Assembly (NCBI RefSeq): GCF_009905605.1
Contig: NZ_JAAAKZ010000001.1
Location: 186,001-250,000, forward strand
Direction of reading: 5' to 3'
Length of the DNA stretch: 64,000 nt
Source of the DNA: Runella sp. CRIBMP
Lineage (GTDB): Bacteria > Bacteroidota > Bacteroidia > Cytophagales > Spirosomataceae
Shown here: positions 46,379 to 57,516 of the stretch, one piece after another
How positions within the stretch are numbered: the first letter of the stretch is position 1
How the letters are laid out: every line of letters begins with the position of its first letter
Program-made: the position numbers and the translations under genes
The notes under the pieces: generated by a model
What the model was told of the DNA's origin: nothing
The model's database searches: none
The model's input: the letters and a program-made list of their open reading frames with translations, nothing else

Positions 46379-46684
46379 ATGAAACTCAAGGATATTATTA
46401 CGATTGACCCGGAAACATTGGGCGGCACGCCTGTTTTCACGGGAACGCGTGTGCCGGTGTGGTCGTTGTTTGTACATTTAGAAAAAGGAGTATCACTGGA
46501 AGAGTTTTTGGATGACTTTCCGACCGTGAAGCATGAATATGCGGTTGCTTTATTGGAAATAGTACAGCAGACGTTTTCTTCCGAAAAGACATCCGTCAGT
46601 TATATGAAAGTGCTGCTTGATGAAAATGTGCCTCGTAAAAACCCCCTTCACTTCAACAGCCGCGCTTCCAGTTCTCCTTTATAA
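46379..46684 (+). pseudogene. DUF433 antitoxin fused to a truncated DUF5615 toxin start
   Basis: The DUF433 protein starts at 46379 (KLKDIITIDPETLGGTPVF..RVPVWSLFVHLEKGVSLEEF) and continues in frame past its normal end to ATGAAAGTGCTGCTTGATGA at 46604. That ATG and the residues MKVLLDENVPRK are the N-terminal PIN-like beginning of the partner toxin DUF5615. The toxin breaks off about 12 residues later, close to the stop of the convergent LytTR gene at 46648, so only a fragment of the toxin remains. DUF433 and DUF5615 form a common toxin-antitoxin pair; here the toxin is lost. Confidence 0.8.
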
Positions 46685-47325
46685 CTCCCCGCCAGTGGAA
46701 TGGTGACATTGCCAACTGTTACCTGATGGCGTTCCATTTTCTGAATGGCGTTGAGCGCCACCAAATAGGATTTATGAATGCGCAAAAAGCGGTCGGGCGG
46801 CAGCTGGGCCAACATTTCATTGAGCGTCATGCGGGTCGTGACCTTGCGGGTGCGTTCATGGATAAACAGTAGGTTGGTGTCTGACTGAATATACAAAATT
46901 TCGTCCACATTGACCCTGACCCAATCGTAGCCGTCTTTGACAAAAATACCCGACGACTCACCCGTTTTTTTGGAGTGCTGCCCCAGTGCGCGGTTGCAAG
47001 CCTGCAAAAAGCGCCCGAACTCGACGGGTTTGAGCAGGTAATCTAGGGCGTGCAATGCAAAACCTTCCACGGCATAATCAGGATATGCCGTCACAAAAAT
47101 GATGTGTGTTTTAGTATTATTGAGCAATCGGGCAAAGTCTGTTCCGAGCATATCGGGCATTTGCACGTCCAAAAACAAAACATCAACGGTATTTTGGCCC
47201 AGAAATGCCAAAGCATCTGCCGTACTTACAAACGTGTGTGTGAGGCTGATAAAGGGTACTTTTTCGGCGTGCCGGCGCAAGATTTCGAGGGCAGCGGGTT
47301 CATCATCAAGGGCAATGGCAATCAT
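46648..47325 (-). CDS. LytTR-family response regulator
   Basis: 225 residues from the ATG at 47325; a longer frame reaches 47367 but would begin inside the histidine kinase gene. Receiver domain with phospho-acceptor Asp53 (FLDVQMPDMLG), the AY in VTAYPDYAVEG and KPVEF; then the LytTR DNA-binding domain (VDEILYIQSDTNLLFIHE, PDRFLRIHKSYLVAL, VTIPLAGSYKGELEARLLK). LytTR proteins bind two direct repeats 21 bases apart; such repeats lie upstream of this operon at 49635-49669. Confidence 0.95.
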   Translation of the reverse strand: MIAIALDDEPAALEILRRHAEKVPFISLTHTFVSTADALAFLGQNTVDVLFLDVQMPDMLGTDFARLLNNTKTHIIFVTAYPDYAVEGFALHALDYLLKPVEFGRFLQACNRALGQHSKKTGESSGIFVKDGYDWVRVNVDEILYIQSDTNLLFIHERTRKVTTRMTLNEMLAQLPPDRFLRIHKSYLVALNAIQKMERHQVTVGNVTIPLAGSYKGELEARLLK

Positions 47326-47335
47326 CGTTTCAAAA

Positions 47336-48355
47336 TCAGTAAAGATCCATTTGTAAATGTATTTCAAAAACGTTGTTTTCTTCTTTTATCTTCAGTGTAT
47401 GTCGGTGGGCATAGAGTAATTTCAGGCGTTGTTGTACATTGGCGATGCCCACGCCGTGGCCTTTGCGATGGGCTTCCTTGGCAATTGTGCTATTTTGAAG
47501 ATAGAAATCAAGGGTCTGATTTTCAACGTATAGTTTCATACGAATAAAACATGGATGCTTCATGCTGATGCCGTATTGAAACGCGTTTTCCACAAAGGGA
47601 ATCAACAGCAACGGGGCGATTTGGGCAGGCTGGCCGTCGTATTCAATGTGGATGTCTAAGCGAATGCTGTCACTGTGGGGCAATCGGGCGCGTTGTAGGG
47701 TGAGATATTTGTCCAAAAAAGCTAACTCACTTTCAATACTGATATACGGTTTGGCTGATTCCTGCAAGGTAAAGCGCATGATACCCGCCAATTGTTGTAC
47801 CAAATCAGCAACGGTATCGTTGTTGGCTCCGGCGGCTTCGTTGTAAATCGTGTTGAGGGTATTAAACAAAAAATGGGGGTTGATCTGCGATTTCAGCGCG
47901 GTCAGTTCGGCTTCCGTTTTTTGTTGCTGCAACACCAACTGCTCCCGACGTGCCCGAAAAGCATCGGCGATGTACCCAAAACCGATGATGATTCCCATCA
48001 ACACCAGCGTGACCAAGCTGTTTTCGTCCACAAATTCTAGCTCTCTGTCTTGACGGAGCTGCAGTAGTTCAAACACCAACCAAGTAAGGGCCACTATCCA
48101 CGTCCAATACCACCAACGTTTTTCAGAGGCTAAGAGCCACCACCGAAAAGGACCACGATAATTGAGCCAGCCTATTGTCCAAACTCCCGCGACCAACAGT
48201 ACATAGCTCGCCAAAAACTTACCGAATCCGCTCAGGCTTTCTCCATCATTGCTGAATTGCGTTTTTAGACTTACGTACAGCAAAAACCCCAGGTAACCGC
48301 TGAACGTAATCATCAACAACAGGAACACTAAGCGGCTGTAAGGGAAGGGTTTCAT
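47336..48355 (-). CDS. LytS-like sensor histidine kinase
   Basis: 339 residues: four or five membrane helices in the first 150 residues, then the LytS/YehU-type His-kinase domain with SQINPHFLFNTLNTIYNEA (His in HFLFNTLN), and an ATPase lobe with LLIPFVENAFQYGISM and GVGIANVQQRL. It phosphorylates the LytTR regulator, whose start lies 10 bases after the stop. It overlaps the preceding DUF2846-like gene by 4 bases. Confidence 0.95.
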   Translation of the reverse strand: MKPFPYSRLVFLLLMITFSGYLGFLLYVSLKTQFSNDGESLSGFGKFLASYVLLVAGVWTIGWLNYRGPFRWWLLASEKRWWYWTWIVALTWLVFELLQLRQDRELEFVDENSLVTLVLMGIIIGFGYIADAFRARREQLVLQQQKTEAELTALKSQINPHFLFNTLNTIYNEAAGANNDTVADLVQQLAGIMRFTLQESAKPYISIESELAFLDKYLTLQRARLPHSDSIRLDIHIEYDGQPAQIAPLLLIPFVENAFQYGISMKHPCFIRMKLYVENQTLDFYLQNSTIAKEAHRKGHGVGIANVQQRLKLLYAHRHTLKIKEENNVFEIHLQMDLY

Positions 48356-48765
48356 TCGACTTTTTTGAGGGCGGTTTCGTCTGGTTTCAATTTGGTCATT
48401 TCTTTGGCCGCTTGGTCACTGGCGGTACGTTTAAAATAGAGGGCATTGCTCAAGTAATCATAATCGACAATGCCTTTCAAAAAAAGCGTTTCGTTGGCAT
48501 TGACGGTAAATATCATGCTTTTCTTTTCGGTAATAAAATCGCCTTCGGTCTCTATCCTGATCTTTCCCGCTGGGACTTCCAGCCGAAAGTATTCGTTATT
48601 GCTGAACCGTTGTGTAACCACCTGACTGTTTATTTTCACCGTAAAGTCTGAGCCAAAATAATCTTTTCTTCGGTACAGCACCACTGTTGCCCGTTCGACA
48701 GAGGGTAGTTCCTCTCCAAAACTAGGAAAGTAAAGCCAAAGCAGCATAATTGTTCGGAGTTTCAT
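48352..48765 (-). CDS. DUF2846-like secreted protein
   Basis: 137 residues. Signal peptide (LRTIMLLWLYFPSFGEE). The region VVLYRRKDYFGSDFTVKINSQVVTQRFSNNEYFRLEVPAGKIRIETEGD is the DUF2846 pattern (a beta-rich domain). Its role is unknown. It overlaps the LytS-like gene by 4 bases (ATGA), so they are co-translated, and it follows the membrane-protein-like gene upstream by 9 bases. Confidence 0.75.
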   Translation of the reverse strand: MKLRTIMLLWLYFPSFGEELPSVERATVVLYRRKDYFGSDFTVKINSQVVTQRFSNNEYFRLEVPAGKIRIETEGDFITEKKSMIFTVNANETLFLKGIVDYDYLSNALYFKRTASDQAAKEMTKLKPDETALKKVE

Positions 48766-48774
48766 GGCTGTATA

Positions 48775-49524
48775 TCAGACTTTTGACTTCCGTTTATGGC
48801 TTTTGCTGATGACGAAGATGCTTTGGATAAATACCTGATGTATGCGGTCAACGGGGGCGTTGGAAAGGAGGATATTATTGTCTGTTTTCCAGGGTACGGT
48901 GTTTATTCCCAAGCGGTAGCCTATCCGAAAGACCGAGTTTAGGCTGACGGGGCGAGAGGGCCGGATGGTTCGCTCCAGTGAAAGTTCAAAAAAAGTATTT
49001 TTATGGACCAATGCGGGCGATTGCCCAACGATGGGTGTAGAAAGGAGATTATTAAAGGCCAGTGTTTGGGAGGCATCGGTCGTATATACGCTGGCGGTGG
49101 ATTCAACCCTGCCTACGCCTATGTTGATAAAATACTGCCGGTTTCGCTCAAAAAAAACTGCATAGCCAGCATTCAACAAGTACGCTATATAACTCCCTGT
49201 GACTTTGGTTTGTTTTTTTGTATCGCTTCCTGGAAGCCCATAGATGGCTTCTACCCCAAACTTATAACGACCTCCCTGCAAAGCACCGCCGTAGGAAGCG
49301 ATGGTGTTGAATTGGACGGCTGAGTACCCAACCCCCTGACTTTTAAATGCCTGCCTCAGGTGTGGATAATGCGTTATGTTAAAATTGACGAACGGCGCTC
49401 CGATGTAAATATGTGAATGCCATTTAAATTCATCAGGATCGGGAATGGCTACAGAATCCTGTTGGGCGTTGCTTTTGACAAACGTGCTAAAAACAATCAG
49501 GGGGAATAGACAAAATAATTTCAT
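48775..49524 (-). CDS. Hypothetical secreted/outer membrane beta-barrel-like protein
   Basis: 249 residues with a signal peptide (LFCLFPLIVFSTFVKSNAQQ). The rest is rich in aromatic and beta-strand residues (GVGYSAVQFNTIASYGGALQGGRYKFGVEAIYGLPG; SLNSVFRIGYRLGINTVPW), suggesting an outer membrane barrel. No known family. First gene of the operon that ends with the LytTR regulator; the LytTR-type repeats at 49635-49669 lie 111-145 bases before its start, so this is the likely target. Confidence 0.7.
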   Translation of the reverse strand: MKLFCLFPLIVFSTFVKSNAQQDSVAIPDPDEFKWHSHIYIGAPFVNFNITHYPHLRQAFKSQGVGYSAVQFNTIASYGGALQGGRYKFGVEAIYGLPGSDTKKQTKVTGSYIAYLLNAGYAVFFERNRQYFINIGVGRVESTASVYTTDASQTLAFNNLLSTPIVGQSPALVHKNTFFELSLERTIRPSRPVSLNSVFRIGYRLGINTVPWKTDNNILLSNAPVDRIHQVFIQSIFVISKSHKRKSKV

Positions 49525-50128: not shown

Positions 50129-50172
50129 AAGAAAAATGACCTTTGCCAGGGAAGGCAAAGGTCGGAATAATA

Positions 50173-51114
50173 TTAGATAAATTTGATACCCAATGATGAC
50201 ATAACGGGGGCAATAGGATTAACGATGGTAATAATTGAAGAGCCCGCAAAAAGCAATCCTACGGCTTGGTTTTGCATGTTCAATACTAGGCTTCCAGAAT
50301 CGCCGCCCGCACTCATATCGGAGGTGATGATTTGATTCACAAATCGAGCCACTCTGCCGCCTCCGTAATTAACATTTATTGTACCATTTATGGCTTGGAC
50401 TTTGCCAGTAGAATGTGCGGTAGTACGGCCACATTTCTGAACAATCATCCCTACACTCGCTAACGCGGTGCCATTGCAATAGCCTATCCAGTTGATTTCG
50501 CGGTTGAGTACGTTGAAATCGCCTTCTGCAATAGCGGCATCCACCAAATTGGTAGATCCTGCGGCGAAGTTAATCGGGACAAAACGCGCTAATTTCGCTA
50601 CTACATCAGCAGGATTGAGCCCTCCGTCGTAGGGGCCCGGCTGTAAGATGGCGTCTCCTAGTGAGGCATCATTTGAATTTGCCAACACGTGATTATTGCT
50701 TAAGATATAAAACCGTGGGGTTTTGCCAATCGACGGCGTAATGTCCTTTACACAGGTAGCAATGGTCCCCGCCGTAATTTTATAATGGCCCACGCTCAGG
50801 CCACCCTGTACAGGCCGCTGGCGACGGGTGGTTTCTAAGAGGCTGCCTGCCATGATGGTGCCGCTTTCAATTACATCGGTTTTGAAGTTGCCAATTGTAG
50901 AAGGAATTAATTCGTCAGTATCAATCAACCTTTTGTCCAGTTTACTTTCAACATAAACGGTCAAGCAAGGGTCGCCTGTTTCTTTTCCATTTTTGACTTT
51001 GTGCGAAATGGCAACACCTACAACATTTTGACGGGCGAGGAGGCTGTTTTGCTCTACATTCTGCGTTTCAGCAAGTGAAAGGTACTCACCTTTCATTTCA
51101 AAAAGATTCATCAT
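50173..51114 (-). CDS. Trypsin-like serine protease (Nal1-type)
   Basis: 313 residues, no signal peptide or membrane segment visible. Residues about 28-90 form the N-terminal domain (NVVGVAISHKVKNGKETGD..LIPSTIGNF..DVIESG). Then the chymotrypsin fold with the triad His142 (ILSNNHVLANSND), Asp192 (NLVDAAIAEGD) and Ser273 (SAGGDSGSLV). It resembles Nal1-type putative trypsin-like proteases. It is followed 44 bases later by the small lipoprotein and preceded 59 bases earlier by another protease gene. Confidence 0.8.
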   Translation of the reverse strand: MMNLFEMKGEYLSLAETQNVEQNSLLARQNVVGVAISHKVKNGKETGDPCLTVYVESKLDKRLIDTDELIPSTIGNFKTDVIESGTIMAGSLLETTRRQRPVQGGLSVGHYKITAGTIATCVKDITPSIGKTPRFYILSNNHVLANSNDASLGDAILQPGPYDGGLNPADVVAKLARFVPINFAAGSTNLVDAAIAEGDFNVLNREINWIGYCNGTALASVGMIVQKCGRTTAHSTGKVQAINGTINVNYGGGRVARFVNQIITSDMSAGGDSGSLVLNMQNQAVGLLFAGSSIITIVNPIAPVMSSLGIKFI

Positions 51115-51173: not shown

Positions 51174-52202
51174 CTAGGGGTGGTCGGTTCGTGCTCGAAT
51201 GACCAGATTGACCATATCGCTGCCACCGCTCGCAAAATTGGCCGAAGCATTATGGGCGCTTTGAATAGCTACGGCATAGGGTGAACTGTTCCACCAACCA
51301 AAGAAGGGGCCTCCCGATTGGCCCGGCCAAACGTCGGCTTTATGGGTTAAATATTGGTGGGCGTCGGCAAGTTCATCAGCACCGTTTAAGGCAAAATTCC
51401 CCTGGAAAGTAGGACGTTGGCCCCCCGTTAAATCTCCTGGATACCCAACGTGAGACCAATAAAGGCCGCCATCCCAGCTGTCGGTGTAAGATTTGCTGCC
51501 CAGCCATCCCGTTTGATCACCAATTCTTCTATCCAAAACAATCACCACATAATCGTATTGAAGCTCCGTGTAATCCACGCCCCCTGCTCCAGAAACTTTG
51601 TATTTATAATAGGTCAAGGTCGACCAAGCTGCTCCAAAAGGAGCACTGCCGTTGTAATAAGCAGGGGTAAATTTCAGCCAGCCAGTGGTATTGTTGGGTT
51701 TCCAATCCACAATATGGCTACACGTCAATAAGTGACGTGGGCCAATCATTACGCCGCTACCCGAGCCAAGTGAAGATTCGACCCGACCAAAACAGCGCCA
51801 GGGATAAGCCGTACTGTTGAACACGCGACGGTCGTCAGGACTGAAAATCGTTTCAATATCTGCACCGTTCATGAAGCTTTTACGGTCAATAAAAGCAGGA
51901 AGGGCATCTTTTTTAGATTCAGCCGCTGCCTTAGGTTCAAAATCTGCAAAACTTGGAATGAAGCCTTTTGTTTCTAAAGGCTCAGCAATGGTTGCTAATT
52001 CTGCTTTTGTAAATGCTTTAAAACCGACCGACTTACCACCCACAGGAAACACCCGGGTACCCAAAGGAACGGGCTCCGAAGAAATCACGGCCTCGCTAAC
52101 CACAGGGCTTATCATTGGAGGCGTTGTCTTTGCTTTTTGAGCAGTCATTTTTTTAATTTCCTCAGCCGACATAGGCTGTCCAACTACCAAATCAGTTGCC
52201 AT
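51174..52202 (-). CDS. V8/trypsin-like serine protease, no visible signal peptide
   Basis: 342 residues. The first ~125 residues are Lys/Ala/Pro rich and look like a propeptide (MSAEEIKKMTAQKAKTTPPM). Then the triad His163 (HLLTCSHIVDW), Asp217 (LQYDYVVIVLD) and Ser296 (VWPGQSGGPFFGW) of the glutamyl endopeptidase/trypsin type. No signal peptide is seen, although proteases of this kind are usually exported, so the secretion route is unclear. First gene of the operon; it carries the box at 52331-52352 and the promoter at 52240-52256. Confidence 0.85.
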   Translation of the reverse strand: MATDLVVGQPMSAEEIKKMTAQKAKTTPPMISPVVSEAVISSEPVPLGTRVFPVGGKSVGFKAFTKAELATIAEPLETKGFIPSFADFEPKAAAESKKDALPAFIDRKSFMNGADIETIFSPDDRRVFNSTAYPWRCFGRVESSLGSGSGVMIGPRHLLTCSHIVDWKPNNTTGWLKFTPAYYNGSAPFGAAWSTLTYYKYKVSGAGGVDYTELQYDYVVIVLDRRIGDQTGWLGSKSYTDSWDGGLYWSHVGYPGDLTGGQRPTFQGNFALNGADELADAHQYLTHKADVWPGQSGGPFFGWWNSSPYAVAIQSAHNASANFASGGSDMVNLVIRARTDHP

Positions 52203-52239
52203 TTTTAGAAAAAGTTAAAGGTTGAAAAGTGACATTCTT

Positions 52240-52256
52240 GTAGAAACTTATCACGC
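52240..52256 (-). promoter_or_regulatory. Core promoter of the protease operon
   Basis: On the minus strand GCGTGATAAGTTTCTAC (complement of 52240-52256) nearly repeats GCGTGATAGGTTTTTAC before the ThuA-like gene (54092-54108), at the same distance, 36-54 bases before each ATG. TAAGTTT fits the -7 element; no -33 TTTG is seen, suggesting an activator is needed. Confidence 0.5.
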
Positions 52257-52330
52257 CAGCCGCACAGTGCTTAGCTGGAAGCCGTTTTAAATACCTTGAC
52301 AAAGTTCTTGACTTTTATGGCGGTTTGTGC

Positions 52331-52352
52331 CCGCCAATTCGGGTGGTATTTG
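52331..52352 (-). promoter_or_regulatory. Palindromic box 1, before the protease operon
   Basis: CCGCCAATTCGGGTGG followed by TATTTG, 129-150 bases before the ATG at 52202. Copies at 54181-54202 and 56399-56420 give the shared pattern CCNCCAATTYGGGKGG. A probable binding site of the NarL-type regulator encoded at 55623. Confidence 0.55.
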
Positions 52353-52366
52353 GGAGGGTATATAAA

Positions 52367-52397
52367 TTAAAAAAAGCCACTTCTATGGAAGTGGCTT
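52367..52397 (-). terminator. Terminator of the ThuA-like gene
   Basis: AAGCCACTTC and its complement (52374-52383, 52388-52397) with a 4-base loop; on the minus strand the stem is followed by a T run (complement of 52367-52373). It lies 25 bases after the stop at 52422. Confidence 0.8.
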
Positions 52398-52421
52398 CAT
52401 ACCTGTTGAAAAAACAAGTAC

Positions 52422-54056
52422 CTATTTACTCAGCAATTCTTTCAGAACCTTTGTGGTATTTACCTGTTCGTCTAGTATTGTTACTATGCTATCTACGCCC
52501 AATTTAACCCCTTCTTGAACGAGTATTTCCAGTTTTTTATCGTCTGATTTGTCAGTAAAGAGTTGTGCAGATTCTTGCGGAAATTCGGGTAACGAGTTTA
52601 CAATGCTTTGCATTACTCCCCCCAGGAGGGCATCTATAACCGTATCTTCCGACAAAAGGGGCGTTTTTGTTTTGGCTTTTTCTTCATTTGCAATAGAAAT
52701 ATTAAGGAGTTTACTCAACACATGTGGCTCTTTTTCGCCCAGAAAATCCACAAATGTCTTTGCTGCTTCCACTACTTCGGTGTCGGAGAAGGTTTGTTGT
52801 ATCATTTTACGGGTTTGTTGACCTACCTCTATTATTTCCTCCCATTTGGGTTTTGGATTAGGTCTAACCTCCCAAATAAGCGGGAATTTATAACGGATAA
52901 AATAGATATATCTAAATCTAAAACAGCGTTGTAGGTAGGTGGGGCTAATCCACAAAGCTATATTTCTAAAATATTGTTTGATGTCTTCATATTCTGGGGT
53001 CGGATTGCCATTGACGTAAAAACCCGTATCTCCTGCCCGAGTACTTCCCTCTCCATTTAGATTTATGTTTAAGAAATGGTGCCAAGTGGCATCAACCGAA
53101 ACACGCCCCTTGCCCGCTAAATGCCCATCATAGGCTACAATTGCCCCAAAACATCGCGGATTAACCGCAGGTTTGAAGCTATCTGTTAAGGCTCCTGCAC
53201 CAGAATATGAAATTGCCACCAATTGGGGGCTTACTCTTGAGCCCCCACCAATCGCGGCGGGGTATTCATCGCGCATATCGCCTGGCAGCACTTTCTCAGT
53301 TAGGTTACTGGGGACTACACACTCGCCTTCGTGTGCATGGTCTGGTAAAAATCGAATCACGCCTCTACTTTTACTAAGTAGTGGGTGAGGAACAGCCGAC
53401 GTCCCGATCGTAAAAAAACGAGGAATAATATTTTGCGGGGTTTCGTCTGATTGGTCATTGAATTGATAACCAGCAGTATCTCCAACGACGGTTGTGTCTA
53501 GTCTATTTGCGGAGCCTCCATCAGGGGCTACTTGTCGGCCTGCTGGAGCATTAGGCCAATACCATTTGCGCATACTCCTGACACGCGGTATCTCTGCGCA
53601 CATGGCTTTCCCTAAATCTTCGTGGTCGCCAGTGGCAAAAACTCCCCCACCTGCTTCCATAAAGTTGGTAATAGCCAGCAATTCTGCGGTGGGGAGTATT
53701 GGGCTTCTCTGAACACCAAAAAGCCAAACTTGGTCATAGTTAGTATTATTGAAGGCTTTAGCGGCGGCTGGTGCGGGCACCTGTGAGTTGTCAAACTTAA
53801 AGTTATTTATATCAGCTCCTGTACCTACCCCTCGATGTGCCTTTGTAATCACAAAATCCACAAAGGGTCTGCTACTTGTATTGAGGGCTTTGGTGATGAG
53901 TTCTGCTAACCCAAAATCGTTATTGCCAAATGCGATACCACCATCTGACACAATTAAAATTCTAACCTTGCACCTTCGCCATGGCCAAAGTATAATTTTG
54001 TCGAAATCAACAGGTTTAAAATTGTCTTTGATTGGCTTTAATCTGAGGTTTAACAT
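52422..54056 (-). CDS. Large protein of unknown function with a ThuA/class I GATase-like N-terminal part
   Basis: 544 residues. It starts with a Rossmann-like segment (RILIVSDGGIAFGNNDFGLAELITKAL) and YDQVWLFGVQRSPILPTAELLAITNFMEAGGGVFATGDHEDLG, typical of ThuA or GATase-like folds. The middle has HAHEGECVVPSN and ISYSGAGALTD; the C-terminal 180 residues are helical, with a short WPRRCK-like basic region early and no membrane segments. No signal peptide, no close family known to me. It is alone between two terminators but carries the same box and promoter as the protease operon. Confidence 0.65.
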   Translation of the reverse strand: MLNLRLKPIKDNFKPVDFDKIILWPWRRCKVRILIVSDGGIAFGNNDFGLAELITKALNTSSRPFVDFVITKAHRGVGTGADINNFKFDNSQVPAPAAAKAFNNTNYDQVWLFGVQRSPILPTAELLAITNFMEAGGGVFATGDHEDLGKAMCAEIPRVRSMRKWYWPNAPAGRQVAPDGGSANRLDTTVVGDTAGYQFNDQSDETPQNIIPRFFTIGTSAVPHPLLSKSRGVIRFLPDHAHEGECVVPSNLTEKVLPGDMRDEYPAAIGGGSRVSPQLVAISYSGAGALTDSFKPAVNPRCFGAIVAYDGHLAGKGRVSVDATWHHFLNINLNGEGSTRAGDTGFYVNGNPTPEYEDIKQYFRNIALWISPTYLQRCFRFRYIYFIRYKFPLIWEVRPNPKPKWEEIIEVGQQTRKMIQQTFSDTEVVEAAKTFVDFLGEKEPHVLSKLLNISIANEEKAKTKTPLLSEDTVIDALLGGVMQSIVNSLPEFPQESAQLFTDKSDDKKLEILVQEGVKLGVDSIVTILDEQVNTTKVLKELLSK

Positions 54057-54091
54057 GATTGTAAAAGATTAATGTTTCGGGTTTATTTGTC

Positions 54092-54108
54092 GTAAAAACC
54101 TATCACGC
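54092..54108 (-). promoter_or_regulatory. Core promoter of the ThuA-like gene
   Basis: On the minus strand GCGTGATAGGTTTTTAC, nearly identical to the protease operon promoter, 36-52 bases before the ATG at 54056. TAGGTTTT is a near -7 element and no -33 TTTG is seen. Confidence 0.5.
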
Positions 54109-54180
54109 ATGCTATTGCAGGTGCCAGCAAGAAAGCATGTTCAATGCCTCAAAATTCCACATTAATCTTATTTGTCTATC

Positions 54181-54202
54181 CCACCAATTTGGGGGGTATT
54201 TG
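54181..54202 (-). promoter_or_regulatory. Palindromic box 2, before the ThuA-like gene
   Basis: CCACCAATTTGGGGGG followed by TATTTG, 125-146 bases before the ATG at 54056, matching box 1 in sequence and position. Confidence 0.55.
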
Positions 54203-54218
54203 AAAGTCATTAAAATGC

Positions 54219-54248
54219 CAACAACCACCCTGAAGGGGGTGGTTGTTG
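54219..54248 (-). terminator. Stem-loop after the membrane-protein gene
   Basis: A perfect 12-base inverted repeat (CAACAACCACCC and its complement) with a 6-base loop, 43 bases after the stop of the gene at 54291 (minus strand). T content is low on that side. Confidence 0.55.
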
Positions 54249-54290
54249 ATAAAACGATAGGCAGGATTTGAGTCCTGAGTTTTCAAAATC

Positions 54291-55037
54291 TCAATATTCT
54301 TTGGGCAGAAAACGCAAGAATTTGTACTGCCAGATGCCGACCATTAGTAAGATGAGGCCCAGAATTTGGCTTGCATTCCGTACCAAGTACCATTTATAGA
54401 AACTTATGGTATCGGTTTGATAGAGTTTTGTAAAAATAAATTCCAAAAACACTTCAGCCAAAGCGGGAAGGAAAAGGCCCATAAAAATCCAGAAATAAAG
54501 ATTTTTATGGAGTGTTACACTTATATTAGGGTGAATATAAATGCGATATAACATTAGCCCTGAACCAGCTAAAACGAAAATATTTTTTACGGTAGGGGAT
54601 ACCGAATCGTAGCCCCGATAACTCTTAAAAACAAAAACCTGTATCAATTCAAACATAATAAGCCCTAAAACAGCATAACCAAAAAAGGCCTTCCAATTTT
54701 TGTTTTTGACTAAATCTCGAAAAAAAAGGCCAATAAAAGTAAAACGGGCAAAATAGTGAAGAGGGTTAAGGAAAGTCATATGATCTACATTATGCGCTTT
54801 CGTAAAAGGCCTAATATGGGTCGTATAGTAGGGAAATGAGTCATGAAAAATATATTCAACCAACACCCATTCAATAAGTGCTAATGAAGCACAACATCCT
54901 ATCCAAACGGTAAACCATTTGGTTGGATAAGAGGATAGATACTTCTGCTTGGTCAAGGCAAAAGTCCAAATCCCTACTTTGAGTGTTAGAATAAATAGTG
55001 CTGAATAGCGCAGGGAGTCTTCTAAGATGTCCAACAT
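54291..55037 (-). CDS. Polytopic membrane protein of unknown function
   Basis: 248 residues from the ATG at 55037 (an ATG at 55088 lies inside the neighbour gene). About seven membrane helices, such as YSALFILTLKVGIWTFAL, WFTVWIGCCASLALIEWVLV and YFWIFMGLFLPALAEVFLEFIF. Charged loops contain HIRPFTKAHNVDHMTF. No known family. The start is one base from the stop of the preceding gene, so it is in the operon of the NarL-type regulator. Confidence 0.75.
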   Translation of the reverse strand: MLDILEDSLRYSALFILTLKVGIWTFALTKQKYLSSYPTKWFTVWIGCCASLALIEWVLVEYIFHDSFPYYTTHIRPFTKAHNVDHMTFLNPLHYFARFTFIGLFFRDLVKNKNWKAFFGYAVLGLIMFELIQVFVFKSYRGYDSVSPTVKNIFVLAGSGLMLYRIYIHPNISVTLHKNLYFWIFMGLFLPALAEVFLEFIFTKLYQTDTISFYKWYLVRNASQILGLILLMVGIWQYKFLRFLPKEY

Positions 55038-55038
55038 G

Positions 55039-55590
55039 TTATTCTTCTTGAGGTGGTCGTGGTATTCGAATAGGCATATCAGATTCATTGCGCTTAGGAT
55101 GTAAAAACACTACATACCTTCCATCCTTGTATTGACCAATGCGGGCATCAATATATTCTTCAATTTCAAAAACTATCTGTCTTAGATAAGTAGGTTCTAA
55201 AATGAGAATAGGAAATTTGATATTCGCTTTTTTTCTTGCTGAATCGGTTTTTGAGATGGAATTTTTTATTTCGTCTGCTAGGTGTTCGGGGGAAGCCCAA
55301 AAATAATCTAGGATCAATTCGTGATTTACTTCACTGATAATAAGGCCCAAAAGGGAACTTGAGCTTTCCAGTTGTTTTATTACTTCGTCACATTTGATTT
55401 GAAATAATTCACCTGAAGAATTCTTACGGTAAAGCAGCTTTGCTAAGCTTTCACTTTTTTTCTTACGTGGTGGATATAATTTGCGGAGTTCATAATCACC
55501 GAACAGGCGGTCAATCGGGCTAAAAAATGCTCGGATTGTTTTTGTTTTTTTGCTGCGAAGCAGCTTTCCTTGGTCGAAAAAAAAGTCCAT
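55039..55590 (-). CDS. Hypothetical cytoplasmic protein
   Basis: 183 residues from the ATG at 55590; a TTG at 55626 would overlap the regulator's stop and is less likely. Basic first part (KLLRSKKTKTIRAFF, PPRKKKSES), then alpha/beta with SLLGLIISEVNHELILDYFW and FEIEEYIDARIGQYKDGRY, and a Pro-rich end (RIPRPPQEE). No family recognised. Between regulator and membrane gene, so in the same operon. Confidence 0.65.
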   Translation of the reverse strand: MDFFFDQGKLLRSKKTKTIRAFFSPIDRLFGDYELRKLYPPRKKKSESLAKLLYRKNSSGELFQIKCDEVIKQLESSSSLLGLIISEVNHELILDYFWASPEHLADEIKNSISKTDSARKKANIKFPILILEPTYLRQIVFEIEEYIDARIGQYKDGRYVVFLHPKRNESDMPIRIPRPPQEE

Positions 55591-55622
55591 AGTATTGTTT
55601 TGTGTAAAGTGTTGTTTATTTT

Positions 55623-56258
55623 TCAAATCAATCGCCCCTCAATTGCTTTGGCTACGGCCTCAGGCGCGGAGTTGACGTGGAGTTTTTCATAAATATGCTT
55701 AACGTGCCAATGCACGGTATGGAAGCTCAGGGTACAGGCGTCGGCTATCATCTTGTAACTCATTCCTTTGACCATACAGCCTAAAATTTCACGTTCGCGG
55801 TCGGTGAGCGATACGTAAGTCGGTTGCGTTCTTACAAATTGGTGTTGAAACATCCGTAGTACCTTAGCCGCAATACTTGGCGTCATCCATGCGCCGCCGC
55901 TATGTACATCTAGGATGGCTTGCAACATTACTTCGGGGTCGGGGTTTTTGAGTACGTAACCGTTGGCCCCCGCACAGATGGCCGCAAAGACCCGGTGGTC
56001 ATCATCAAAAACCGTTTGCATTAGCACTTTCGTGTCGGGTAAGGCCGCTTTTATTTCCTGTAAGGCTTCAATGCCCGAGATACCCGGCATCTGAATGTCC
56101 ATCAACACTACATCGGGTTTGTAGCGTTTGATTTTGCCCACGCAGCCTTCGGCGTCGCCAAACGAAGCGCACATAAATACCTCGTCAGAGCCAGCCAGAT
56201 ACAGCGACAGACTTTGGCGAAAGCTTTTGTTATCTTCAAAGAGTACGACGCGAATCAT
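55623..56258 (-). CDS. NarL/FixJ-family response regulator
   Basis: 211 residues from the ATG at 56258. Receiver with acidic FEDN, phospho-acceptor Asp54 (VLMDIQMPG) and Lys in GYVLKNPD; then a LuxR-type HTH (SLTDREREILGCMVKGMSYKMIADACTLSFHTVHWHVKHIYEKLHV). It is the DNA-binding partner of the histidine kinase upstream. Box 3 lies 141-162 bases before its start, so it may regulate its own operon as well as the protease and ThuA-like genes. Confidence 0.95.
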   Translation of the reverse strand: MIRVVLFEDNKSFRQSLSLYLAGSDEVFMCASFGDAEGCVGKIKRYKPDVVLMDIQMPGISGIEALQEIKAALPDTKVLMQTVFDDDHRVFAAICAGANGYVLKNPDPEVMLQAILDVHSGGAWMTPSIAAKVLRMFQHQFVRTQPTYVSLTDREREILGCMVKGMSYKMIADACTLSFHTVHWHVKHIYEKLHVNSAPEAVAKAIEGRLI

Positions 56259-56398
56259 AGGCTTGGGAGTCAGAAACAAAGAGACGAAGAAAGAGGTCCA
56301 AATAGCACTTATTCCTATGACTTTTACCCTTTGTTAAAAGTAAAGTTTTATGCTTGATACTTTGCAACAAAAATCCCGAAAGTTATCGAACGGTCACC

Positions 56399-56420
56399 CC
56401 CCCAATTTGGGTGGGGTGAG
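56399..56420 (-). promoter_or_regulatory. Palindromic box 3, before the NarL-type regulator
   Basis: CCCCCAATTTGGGTGG within a run of C, 141-162 bases before the ATG at 56258, in the 169-base gap between kinase and regulator. Same pattern as boxes 1 and 2. It fits autoregulation. Confidence 0.5.
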
Positions 56421-56427
56421 TATGAGG

Positions 56428-57516
56428 TTATATAGATATGACTGTGACTTCCAATTGGGTGCCTTTTCCTGGGTTTGAGCCCAGTTTTACCTCCATAAAG
56501 CTCTCGGAGGCACGTTTTTGGTAGTTTTTGAGGCCATTGCCCTCATAACGTTGGGTAGCGTCAAATCCTTTGCCGTTGTCAGCTATGGTCATGAGAAGTT
56601 CTTGTCCGTTCATGTTGAGCGTAACATTCACCACGGTTGCCTCAGCGTGTTTGAGGATGTTGTTGAGGGCTTCTTTGAAAATTAGGTAAAGATTTTGACG
56701 TTGCTCCATGCTGAATTGGAGTCGGGTTGTTTCGGTAGAAGAAAGTTGATTATTAAAACTCAGTGAAATATCCTGTGGAGTGAGCAATTGAAACGCCAAC
56801 GAGCGCATTTTTTCAAATAACTGCTCCGTAGAATCATTGTTGGGGTTGAGTGTCCAGACCGTGTCGCGGATGGTTTGGATGGTTTCTTCGGAGTCGGTTT
56901 TGATTTGTTGTAAAATAGACAGCATTCCTGGAGCTTGTTGCCCGTATTTTTTTTCAACCAAGCGCGTCGAAATGGCAATGCTACTTAGGGTCGCGCCCAC
57001 TTCGTCGTGGAGATCGGCGGCGATGCGGTTGCGGAGGCTTTGCAGTTTGAGTTTTTGGCGAAAATTATACAGCAGAAAAAAGTAAATCGCCGCGCCTGCC
57101 AACAGCAATACATACACCGCTACGGCGGGCCAAAACCACCATTCTTCCATGATGCTTTCTTCTATTTCGAGCGTGATTTGGGCGGGCTCTGACCATTGGC
57201 CGTTTTGTTGTGCCTGTACCCAAAAATGATACTCACCTCCTTTAAGATTGTTGTAGCGTGCAATAGGGTGGTTTAATGTAACTGTATCGGGGTCTAATCC
57301 AGCCGTGTAGTAGCGGTAGGTACAATCGCAGGGTTTCCATTCAATGTGCAGATCATTTTCCAACGCGGCCAGTTTTACCACGGAGTCGGTAGAAACAACT
57401 TTTGCTTTCCCGTTGGATTGAATAGATACGATGGAGGGCGTGGATTGCGCCGTTGCCGTTATGAAAACAAAAAAAATCAATCCCCACGCGCCTGCCCCGA
57501 TCGCCGTTTTGTTCAT
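56428..57516 (-). CDS. NarL-type sensor histidine kinase with Y_Y_Y domain
   Basis: 362 residues. Signal/anchor at the start, a beta-sandwich Y_Y_Y domain (residues about 45-118, with HIEWKPCDCTYRYYTAGLDPDTVTL and GEYHFWVQAQQNGQWSEP), a membrane helix (AVAVYVLLLAGAAIYFFLL), a HisKA_3 domain with His170 (RIAADLHDEVGATLSSIAIS), and an ATPase lobe (NGLKNYQKRASES). The long beta-propeller repeats found in typical Y_Y_Y sensors are absent, so it is a short version. It lies 169 bases upstream of its regulator. Confidence 0.93.
   Translation of the reverse strand: MNKTAIGAGAWGLIFFVFITATAQSTPSIVSIQSNGKAKVVSTDSVVKLAALENDLHIEWKPCDCTYRYYTAGLDPDTVTLNHPIARYNNLKGGEYHFWVQAQQNGQWSEPAQITLEIEESIMEEWWFWPAVAVYVLLLAGAAIYFFLLYNFRQKLKLQSLRNRIAADLHDEVGATLSSIAISTRLVEKKYGQQAPGMLSILQQIKTDSEETIQTIRDTVWTLNPNNDSTEQLFEKMRSLAFQLLTPQDISLSFNNQLSSTETTRLQFSMEQRQNLYLIFKEALNNILKHAEATVVNVTLNMNGQELLMTIADNGKGFDATQRYEGNGLKNYQKRASESFMEVKLGSNPGKGTQLEVTVISI

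Follow-up and report, generated by a model that had tools for sequence, protein, structure and literature searches.

A palindromic box as the predicted operator of an adjacent NarL-type response regulator and its exchangeable cargo operons in Runella sp. CRIBMP

The 64,000-nucleotide stretch of the Runella sp. CRIBMP genome analyzed here (contig NZ_JAAAKZ010000001.1, positions 186,001 to 250,000), referred to as the window, contains three minus-strand gene groups that are each opened by a copy of the same palindromic box and each closed by a terminator-like hairpin. Sequence comparison makes it highly probable that this box serves as operator for the NarL-type response regulator encoded next to it, which would activate its own operon and two neighboring cargo operons. 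The boxes, their fixed spacing, their conservation, and the covariation of box class with the recognition helix of the regulator were computed directly. Because the spacing is fixed, the box is conserved, and its class tracks residues 183 and 184, it is very probable that the regulator recognizes this box, regulates its own expression, and drives a local regulon. An initial annotation of the window had proposed a small regulon under the control of this regulator, exerted through the box, and that proposal is supported.

In the scheme that we infer, which extends to the action of the cargo, a histidine kinase would phosphorylate the regulator, and a regulator dimer would bind an inverted repeat of two 7-base half-sites centered at about −43.5. 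Bound regulator would activate rather than repress, by bringing RNA polymerase to promoters in which the Bacteroidota −7 TTTG is present and a −33 element is missing. Its targets would be its own operon (regulator, small variable protein, and membrane protein) and two cargo operons, one encoding a 544-amino-acid (aa) protein and the other two trypsin-like proteins.

Three boxes and their background

The three gene groups and the kinase gene lie on the minus strand. Along that strand, the kinase gene (56428..57516) is followed by box 3 (56398..56414; CCACCCAAATTGGGGGG), 13 nt past the kinase stop codon, and by the genes for the regulator (55623..56258), the small protein, and the membrane protein. 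A hairpin (54218..54249) then precedes box 2 (54180..54196; CCCCCCAAATTGGTGGG) and the gene for the 544-aa protein (52422..54056), after which come a second hairpin (52373..52398), box 1 (52330..52346; CCACCCGAATTGGCGGG, read towards the gene), the two trypsin-like genes (52202-50173), and a last hairpin (50138..50163). The pattern scan and the promoter spacing make the boxes predicted operators of the regulator operon, the 544-aa gene, and the protease operon, respectively, with the center of box 1 at about −43.5.

The pattern CCNCCAATTYGGGKGG occurs with 0 mismatches at 52331-52346, 54181-54196, and 56399-56414, as first reported, and these are the only three exact matches in the whole genome (7,129,087 bp). 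When up to 3 mismatches were allowed, the window gave 17 matches, compared with a mean of 6.92 and a maximum of 14 in shuffles. Seven one-mismatch matches lie elsewhere in the genome; six fall inside open reading frames (ORFs) of at least 70 aa, and the seventh (L009) is intergenic, without TTTG at the promoter spacing. In the direction of the genes, the element reads as a 17-mer, CCNCCCRAATTGGNGGG, which has 12 exact matches in 8 of 247 genomes (own genome included, with 3) and none for the reversed-pattern control. A structured pattern (box, N27, TTTG), written from promoters already known, matched 30 first-order Markov copies of the window 0 times exactly, once at up to 1 mismatch, and 8 times at up to 2 mismatches in all, versus 3 exact matches in the window itself. 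The shuffles, the genome-wide count, the reversed controls, the fixed spacing, and the Markov copies together rule out a chance origin of the boxes.

All three boxes stand on the upstream side of their genes, as had been claimed; the distances to the ATG, given earlier as 125 to 160 bases, are 123 nt (52422-54056 gene), 127 nt (51174-52202 gene), and 139 nt (regulator) when measured from the 17-mer.

Promoter architecture

The tetranucleotide TTTG starts exactly 26 nt past the 17-mer in 25 of 28 nonredundant promoters, and TTTA takes that place in the other 3; at other positions in the first 60 nt past the box, the count for TTTG is 5/1586. These promoters (28 nonredundant of 34) were picked by the box alone, spacing not being a criterion except in G131. 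Removal of near-identical promoters left 28 in the spacing count and 29 in the element count, the compared lengths being different, and a two-mismatch cargo box (L130:8590, with TTTG at +26) and one-mismatch cargo boxes found later stand outside both.

In Bacteroidota promoters, TAnnTTTG has been placed at −12 to −5 (PMC9723704). With TTTG read as the end of this −7 element, the dyad of the box falls between −44 and −43 (about −43.5). On this placement and the TTTG spacing, the −7 element of the protease operon is GAACTTTG (52300..52307; predicted transcription start, ~52295), that of the 544-aa gene is GAATTTTG (54150..54157; ~54145), and that of the regulator operon is GATTTTTG (56368..56375; ~56363). 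An A is found at −11 in 27 of 29 promoters, TTT in all 29, and G at −5 in 26. The sigma-A promoter of Bacteroidota also has a TTG at −33, and here a TTG within −36 to −29 was found in only 2/29 promoters. The half-sites are inverted 7-mers 2 bp apart (7-2-7) with the consensus CCNCCMA-NN-TTGGNGG, perfect in relatives (e.g., TCCCCAATATTGGGGA). We therefore predict that the box is a NarL-like 7-2-7 activator site that replaces the −33 element. The hexamer TATTTG, noted before as common to two of the copies, is, in the direction of the gene, CAAATA just upstream of the box but is not general across promoters; the only upstream feature that promoters share in general is a preference for A/T from −56 to −52.

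The regulator might instead bind the box and repress, excluding RNA polymerase until dephosphorylation or another signal, and activation is not provable from position alone. However, the constant helical phase to the −7 element and the missing −33 TTG are what an activator-dependent promoter needs, and we regard repression as very improbable.

Conservation of the module

In relatives, the box stands between the kinase gene and the response regulator gene and then again ahead of downstream genes. The recurring order, read from the neighborhoods of box matches and membrane-protein homologues, is kinase, box, regulator, often a C39-like peptidase, small variable protein, membrane protein, often a second box, and cargo. 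A box lies past the kinase stop codon in all 26 kinase-regulator gaps tabulated, 20 of them recognized by box sequence, 1 drifted box by a low-score script match, and 5 drifted boxes placed by eye. The table leaves out L082:16037 (an extra gene between regulator and kinase and no box visible), L083 (regulator cut by a contig end), and the duplicate loci L095 and L096. The core of the module is kinase, regulator, small variable protein, membrane protein, and often the C39-like peptidase. No existing name for it was found in family databases or in the literature listings.

The kinase has the domain order Y_Y_Y, transmembrane segment (by eye), HisKA_3, and HATPase in a Pfam scan. HisKA_3 (52.4 bits) and HATPase_c (35.5 bits) both score above cutoff, which places it among the HisKA_3 (NarX/UhpB-type) kinases. 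Y_Y_Y domains are common in Bacteroides hybrid two-component systems.

The signature gene of the module is that of the membrane protein (54291..55088; 265 aa), for which an AlphaFold2 (AF2) model shows eight helices at a mean predicted local distance difference test (pLDDT) score of 73.6; no Pfam or NCBIfam match was obtained at E 0.01. It has matches in 43/222 family genomes, and in 25 of these the match reaches E 1e-19 or better. Of 341 genomes sampled across the order, 31 have a match with E 1e-6 or better; all of the strong ones (E < 1e-48) fall within the same family, and the weak ones outside it come mostly from one genus. Among the best 7999 candidates by word sharing, homologues are mostly named hypothetical, with single ones called "uncharacterized integral membrane protein" or "AzlD."

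The small variable protein (55039..55626; ATG-initiated form, 183 aa) ends in ..MPIRIPRPPQEE and gave no match in Pfam, NCBIfam (E 0.01), or PADLOC. Counted by eye, 22 of 27 small proteins carry [KR][IVLF]P among roughly their last dozen residues, the rest of the sequence being barely alignable. The tail, a feature of the small proteins of the window (55039-55626) and of L082-L145, often follows a Gly-rich stretch and might be a recognition or processing tag. Nine of 10 scanned C39-like peptidases match Peptidase_C39_2 at E < 0.01, and 6 of 10 reach the Pfam cutoff; in the window's own module, there is no peptidase gene at the usual place. At L179:8076-8543 of genome G011, the kinase and box are retained, the regulator ORF is 115 aa long, and the small and membrane proteins are gone; this locus is a decayed island.

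Recognition helix and box class

The regulator is a 211-aa protein starting at ATG 56258, with the recognition helix TVHWHVKHIYEKL (H183, W184). A receiver domain (Response_reg, PF00072; 80.8 bits) and a C-terminal GerE helix-turn-helix domain (PF00196; 60.2 bits) place it in the NarL/FixJ (LuxR-type) group, in agreement with its first description, and phmmer matched it to VraR, DevR, and NarL. Against the NarL orthologue model (NCBIfam NF007935), it scores 122.9 bits, below the cutoff of 250.

The class of the box varies with residues 183/184: HW or HY goes with CCnCC..GGnGG, HS with TCCCCA..GGGGAT, CD or CT with TCCCC or CCCCC..nGGAT, and AT with TCCATA..TTGAT. Two of the 26 regulators (G268 and G123) are too short in the alignment for these residues to be read. 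When association with box class was scored over 139 variable columns of 18 nonredundant regulators, residue 184 had normalized rank 1, residue 183 rank 3, and residue 180 rank 5. Aligned to VraR, 183 and 184 are the two residues directly after TV in the recognition helix, and we take them to be the counterparts of the base-contacting K188 and V189 of NarL, for which a literature search gave no confirmation. In R. defluvii (G001), two modules have differing boxes and differing recognition helices, which suggests insulation of the paralogues. The covariation is support for binding of the box by the regulator, not proof of it.

Boxes beyond the module

Among family genomes, the structured pattern has 40 matches in 18/222, versus 5 for the reversed control. 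Thirteen of these were new when the pattern was written, including 3 inside ORFs. By locus, 28 of the 40 are in modules (one decayed), 3 are in ORFs elsewhere, and 9 are in other intergenic places, five of these nine in a single island of genomes G012 and G010. That island (L174-L177; contig C17 in G012) holds box-preceded genes, TPR-type kinases, and a NarL-type regulator with the recognition helix TVETHR, as well as a 1524-aa Ig_7/Laminin_G_3 protein and a LytTR protein. The TCCC-class pattern has 67 matches in 46/222 genomes, versus 4 for the reversed control; 10 of the 67 coincide in position with regulator-gap boxes of the table described above, and one of the remainder is in the Runella sp. 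CRIBMP genome. Six TCCC-class structured boxes were found in G145 and five in G045, numbers that suggest larger regulons or several paralogous modules.

Several points tell against the proposed model. The foremost concerns a strict pairing of one regulator with one box: more than one regulator may use similar boxes, as suggested by G012 and G010, where the same box also precedes the TVETHR-type regulator, and by G007, where such a box occurs but the best match to the regulator (54%) is no close orthologue. In the covariation analysis, columns 208 (rank 2) and 59 (rank 4) lie outside the recognition helix, regulators and boxes have a common phylogeny that partly confounds the covariation, and the box classes were drawn by hand. 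As to the promoters, T at −12 is present in just 6/29, and the G131 box was moved one base from its script placement onto the palindrome of its own class. The 26-nt spacing is kept in all six drifted boxes (3 nonredundant), which are not independent evidence since five of the six were placed by eye.

These observations leave room for the boxes being true operators read by another NarL-type regulator, such as the TVETHR type found with TPR kinases, or by more than one, with the adjacent regulator as a further target. Similar boxes do precede TVETHR-type regulator genes in G012, G010, and G007 (in G007 with one mismatch and a broken gene), and the Runella sp. CRIBMP genome encodes a 58% relative of that type. 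However, at this relative and at nine other NarL-type regulator loci of the genome, ten in all, no such box was found close by when the spacing was required and up to 2 mismatches were allowed, and box class shifts along with the recognition helix of the regulator inside the module. Across 13 Runella genomes, moreover, class-1 boxes occur in 7/7 with an orthologue of the regulator (one a remnant, in G011) versus 1/6 of the others. We consider a different reader of the box quite unlikely and continue with the adjacent regulator as the one that would bind it.

Exchangeable cargo

Cargo refers here to the genes that follow a cargo box or that close the regulator operon, and its content varies by species. 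In Runella sp. CRIBMP, it consists of two trypsin-like proteins and the 544-aa protein. Of the two proteases previously named, the first gene of the box-1 operon (51174..52202; 342 aa) encodes a trypsin-like peptidase (PF13365; 29.9 bits; cutoff, 27.6), and the second (50173..51114; 313 aa) encodes a protein that scores below the Trypsin_2 cutoff and above that of NAL1_N. The label "ThuA-like" given to the 544-aa protein has no backing: no match was obtained in Pfam to E 0.1, in NCBIfam to 0.01, or among PDB sequences to E 1, and family and homologue searches leave it in no named family.

The window trypsin has matches at E 1e-10 or better in 3/99 genomes (own included, no other Runella), and the 544-aa protein has homologues in 9/99, own included. 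The box precedes none of the 8 fetched 544-aa homologues and neither of the 2 trypsin homologues, so these genes look like swapped cargo; conservation of the box before orthologous genes, which had been set as a check, thus holds for the regulator (26/26 gaps) but not for the protease and 544-aa genes. In R. aurantiaca (G012), the cargo comprises collagen-repeat, type IX secretion system (T9SS)-tail (under its cutoff), and DUF4440 proteins, and in G112, it is a 118-aa LytTR protein. A box-preceded cargo ORF of R. defluvii (L086:9707-11551) has a match to PF01289, the family of thiol-activated cytolysins (E 1.6e-10), from which it follows that the module can carry a pore-forming-like protein. 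Some cargo of relatives looks exported, and no obvious signal peptide was seen by eye in the two proteases or the 544-aa protein, which makes "exported effectors" merely a lead here.

Genomes G012 and G010 have related cargo in common, none of which matches the cargo of this genome, and their low-coordinate flanks are 93-97% (G012) and 92-96% (G010) identical to it. At 46648-49524 of the window, on one side of the island, a LytTR regulator, a sensor kinase, and two other proteins are 92-97% identical to those at L085 and L087. This flank appears to be the conserved side of a cargo-exchange site at which island content differs, and regulator and box are the constant part of the module, with the cargo exchangeable. 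Cargo that differs across species between boxes, next to flanks of 92-97% identity, could also be accounted for if the box were the edge of a recombining segment or of a cassette, or belonged to a terminator. Yet the box also stands ahead of the conserved regulator and keeps its 26 nt to TTTG or TTTA, and separate terminator-like hairpins are present; on these grounds, no search for recombinases having been made, we find this explanation scarcely credible and retain that of an operator.

A broader reading makes the locus a family-wide, previously undescribed signaling-effector island, in which a self-recognition or peptide-signal circuit would switch on interchangeable exported or effector genes. 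Its members would be the kinase, the regulator, the C39-like peptidase, the fast-changing small protein with its [KR][IVLF]P tail, and the multi-helix membrane protein, and paralogous islands of one cell would be insulated by coevolved pairs of operator and recognition helix. In its boldest form, the peptidase would cut the tail loose to act as a peptide signal; we know of no quorum-sensing system laid out in this way in Bacteroidota. We hold this reading to be unlikely.

Comparison with known systems

The heptamer consensus of NarL is TACYYMT, and the Runella half-site is CCnCC(A/C)A. The Runella system further differs from Escherichia coli NarL in that the site replaces the −33 element, the −7 element is that of Bacteroidota, the regulon is local and autoregulated, and the regulator is not NarL. 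Even so, the regulatory device is probably a variant of the NarL kind. E. coli NarL is described as binding 7-2-7 sites (PMC7419079, PMC4549865); at yeaR-yoaG, a single such site just upstream of −35 is enough, and at ogt, an improved site at −44.5 is active by itself, uncoupled from nitrate (PMC7419079). Both yeaR-yoaG and ogt (NarL II, −44.5) resemble the Runella promoters in having inverted 7-mers 2 bp apart beside the −35 position, with a NarL-family dimer, here predicted.

Like the Runella kinase and regulator, PorY-PorX-SigP of Porphyromonas gingivalis type IX secretion is a Bacteroidota two-component system, one that controls export functions; unlike them, it is described as working via an extracytoplasmic function (ECF) sigma factor and has another regulator architecture (PMC4800418). 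The hybrid two-component systems of Bacteroides share the membrane sensor and are described as controlling polysaccharide-use genes; in these, kinase and regulator are fused (PMC11253607), whereas the Runella system has two proteins and a NarL-type output domain.

No entry in the literature listings was recognized as describing this regulator-operator pair. Comparison of residues 183/184 with box class makes an operator code readable, and the fixed, activator-type promoter architecture can serve prediction across Spirosomataceae. To our knowledge, few regulator-operator pairs are known for the many NarL-type systems of Bacteroidota. The box and its spacing offer a route to the targets of an unnamed signaling module with species-exchanged cargo.

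Other features

The three hairpins, which lie past the protease operon, between the 544-aa gene and box 1, and past the membrane-protein gene ahead of box 2, come from a consensus scan that gave 20 matches in the 8-kb region against a mean of 10.0 in shuffles. A search for shared sequence also found a 19-nt leader element common to 52238..52256 (GCGTGATAAGTTTCTACAA) and 54090..54108 (GCGTGATAGGTTTTTACGA). It lies 35 nt (protease operon) and 33 nt (544-aa operon) ahead of the ATGs, within the predicted untranslated leaders, and at up to 1 mismatch, it is unique to these two places in the genome.

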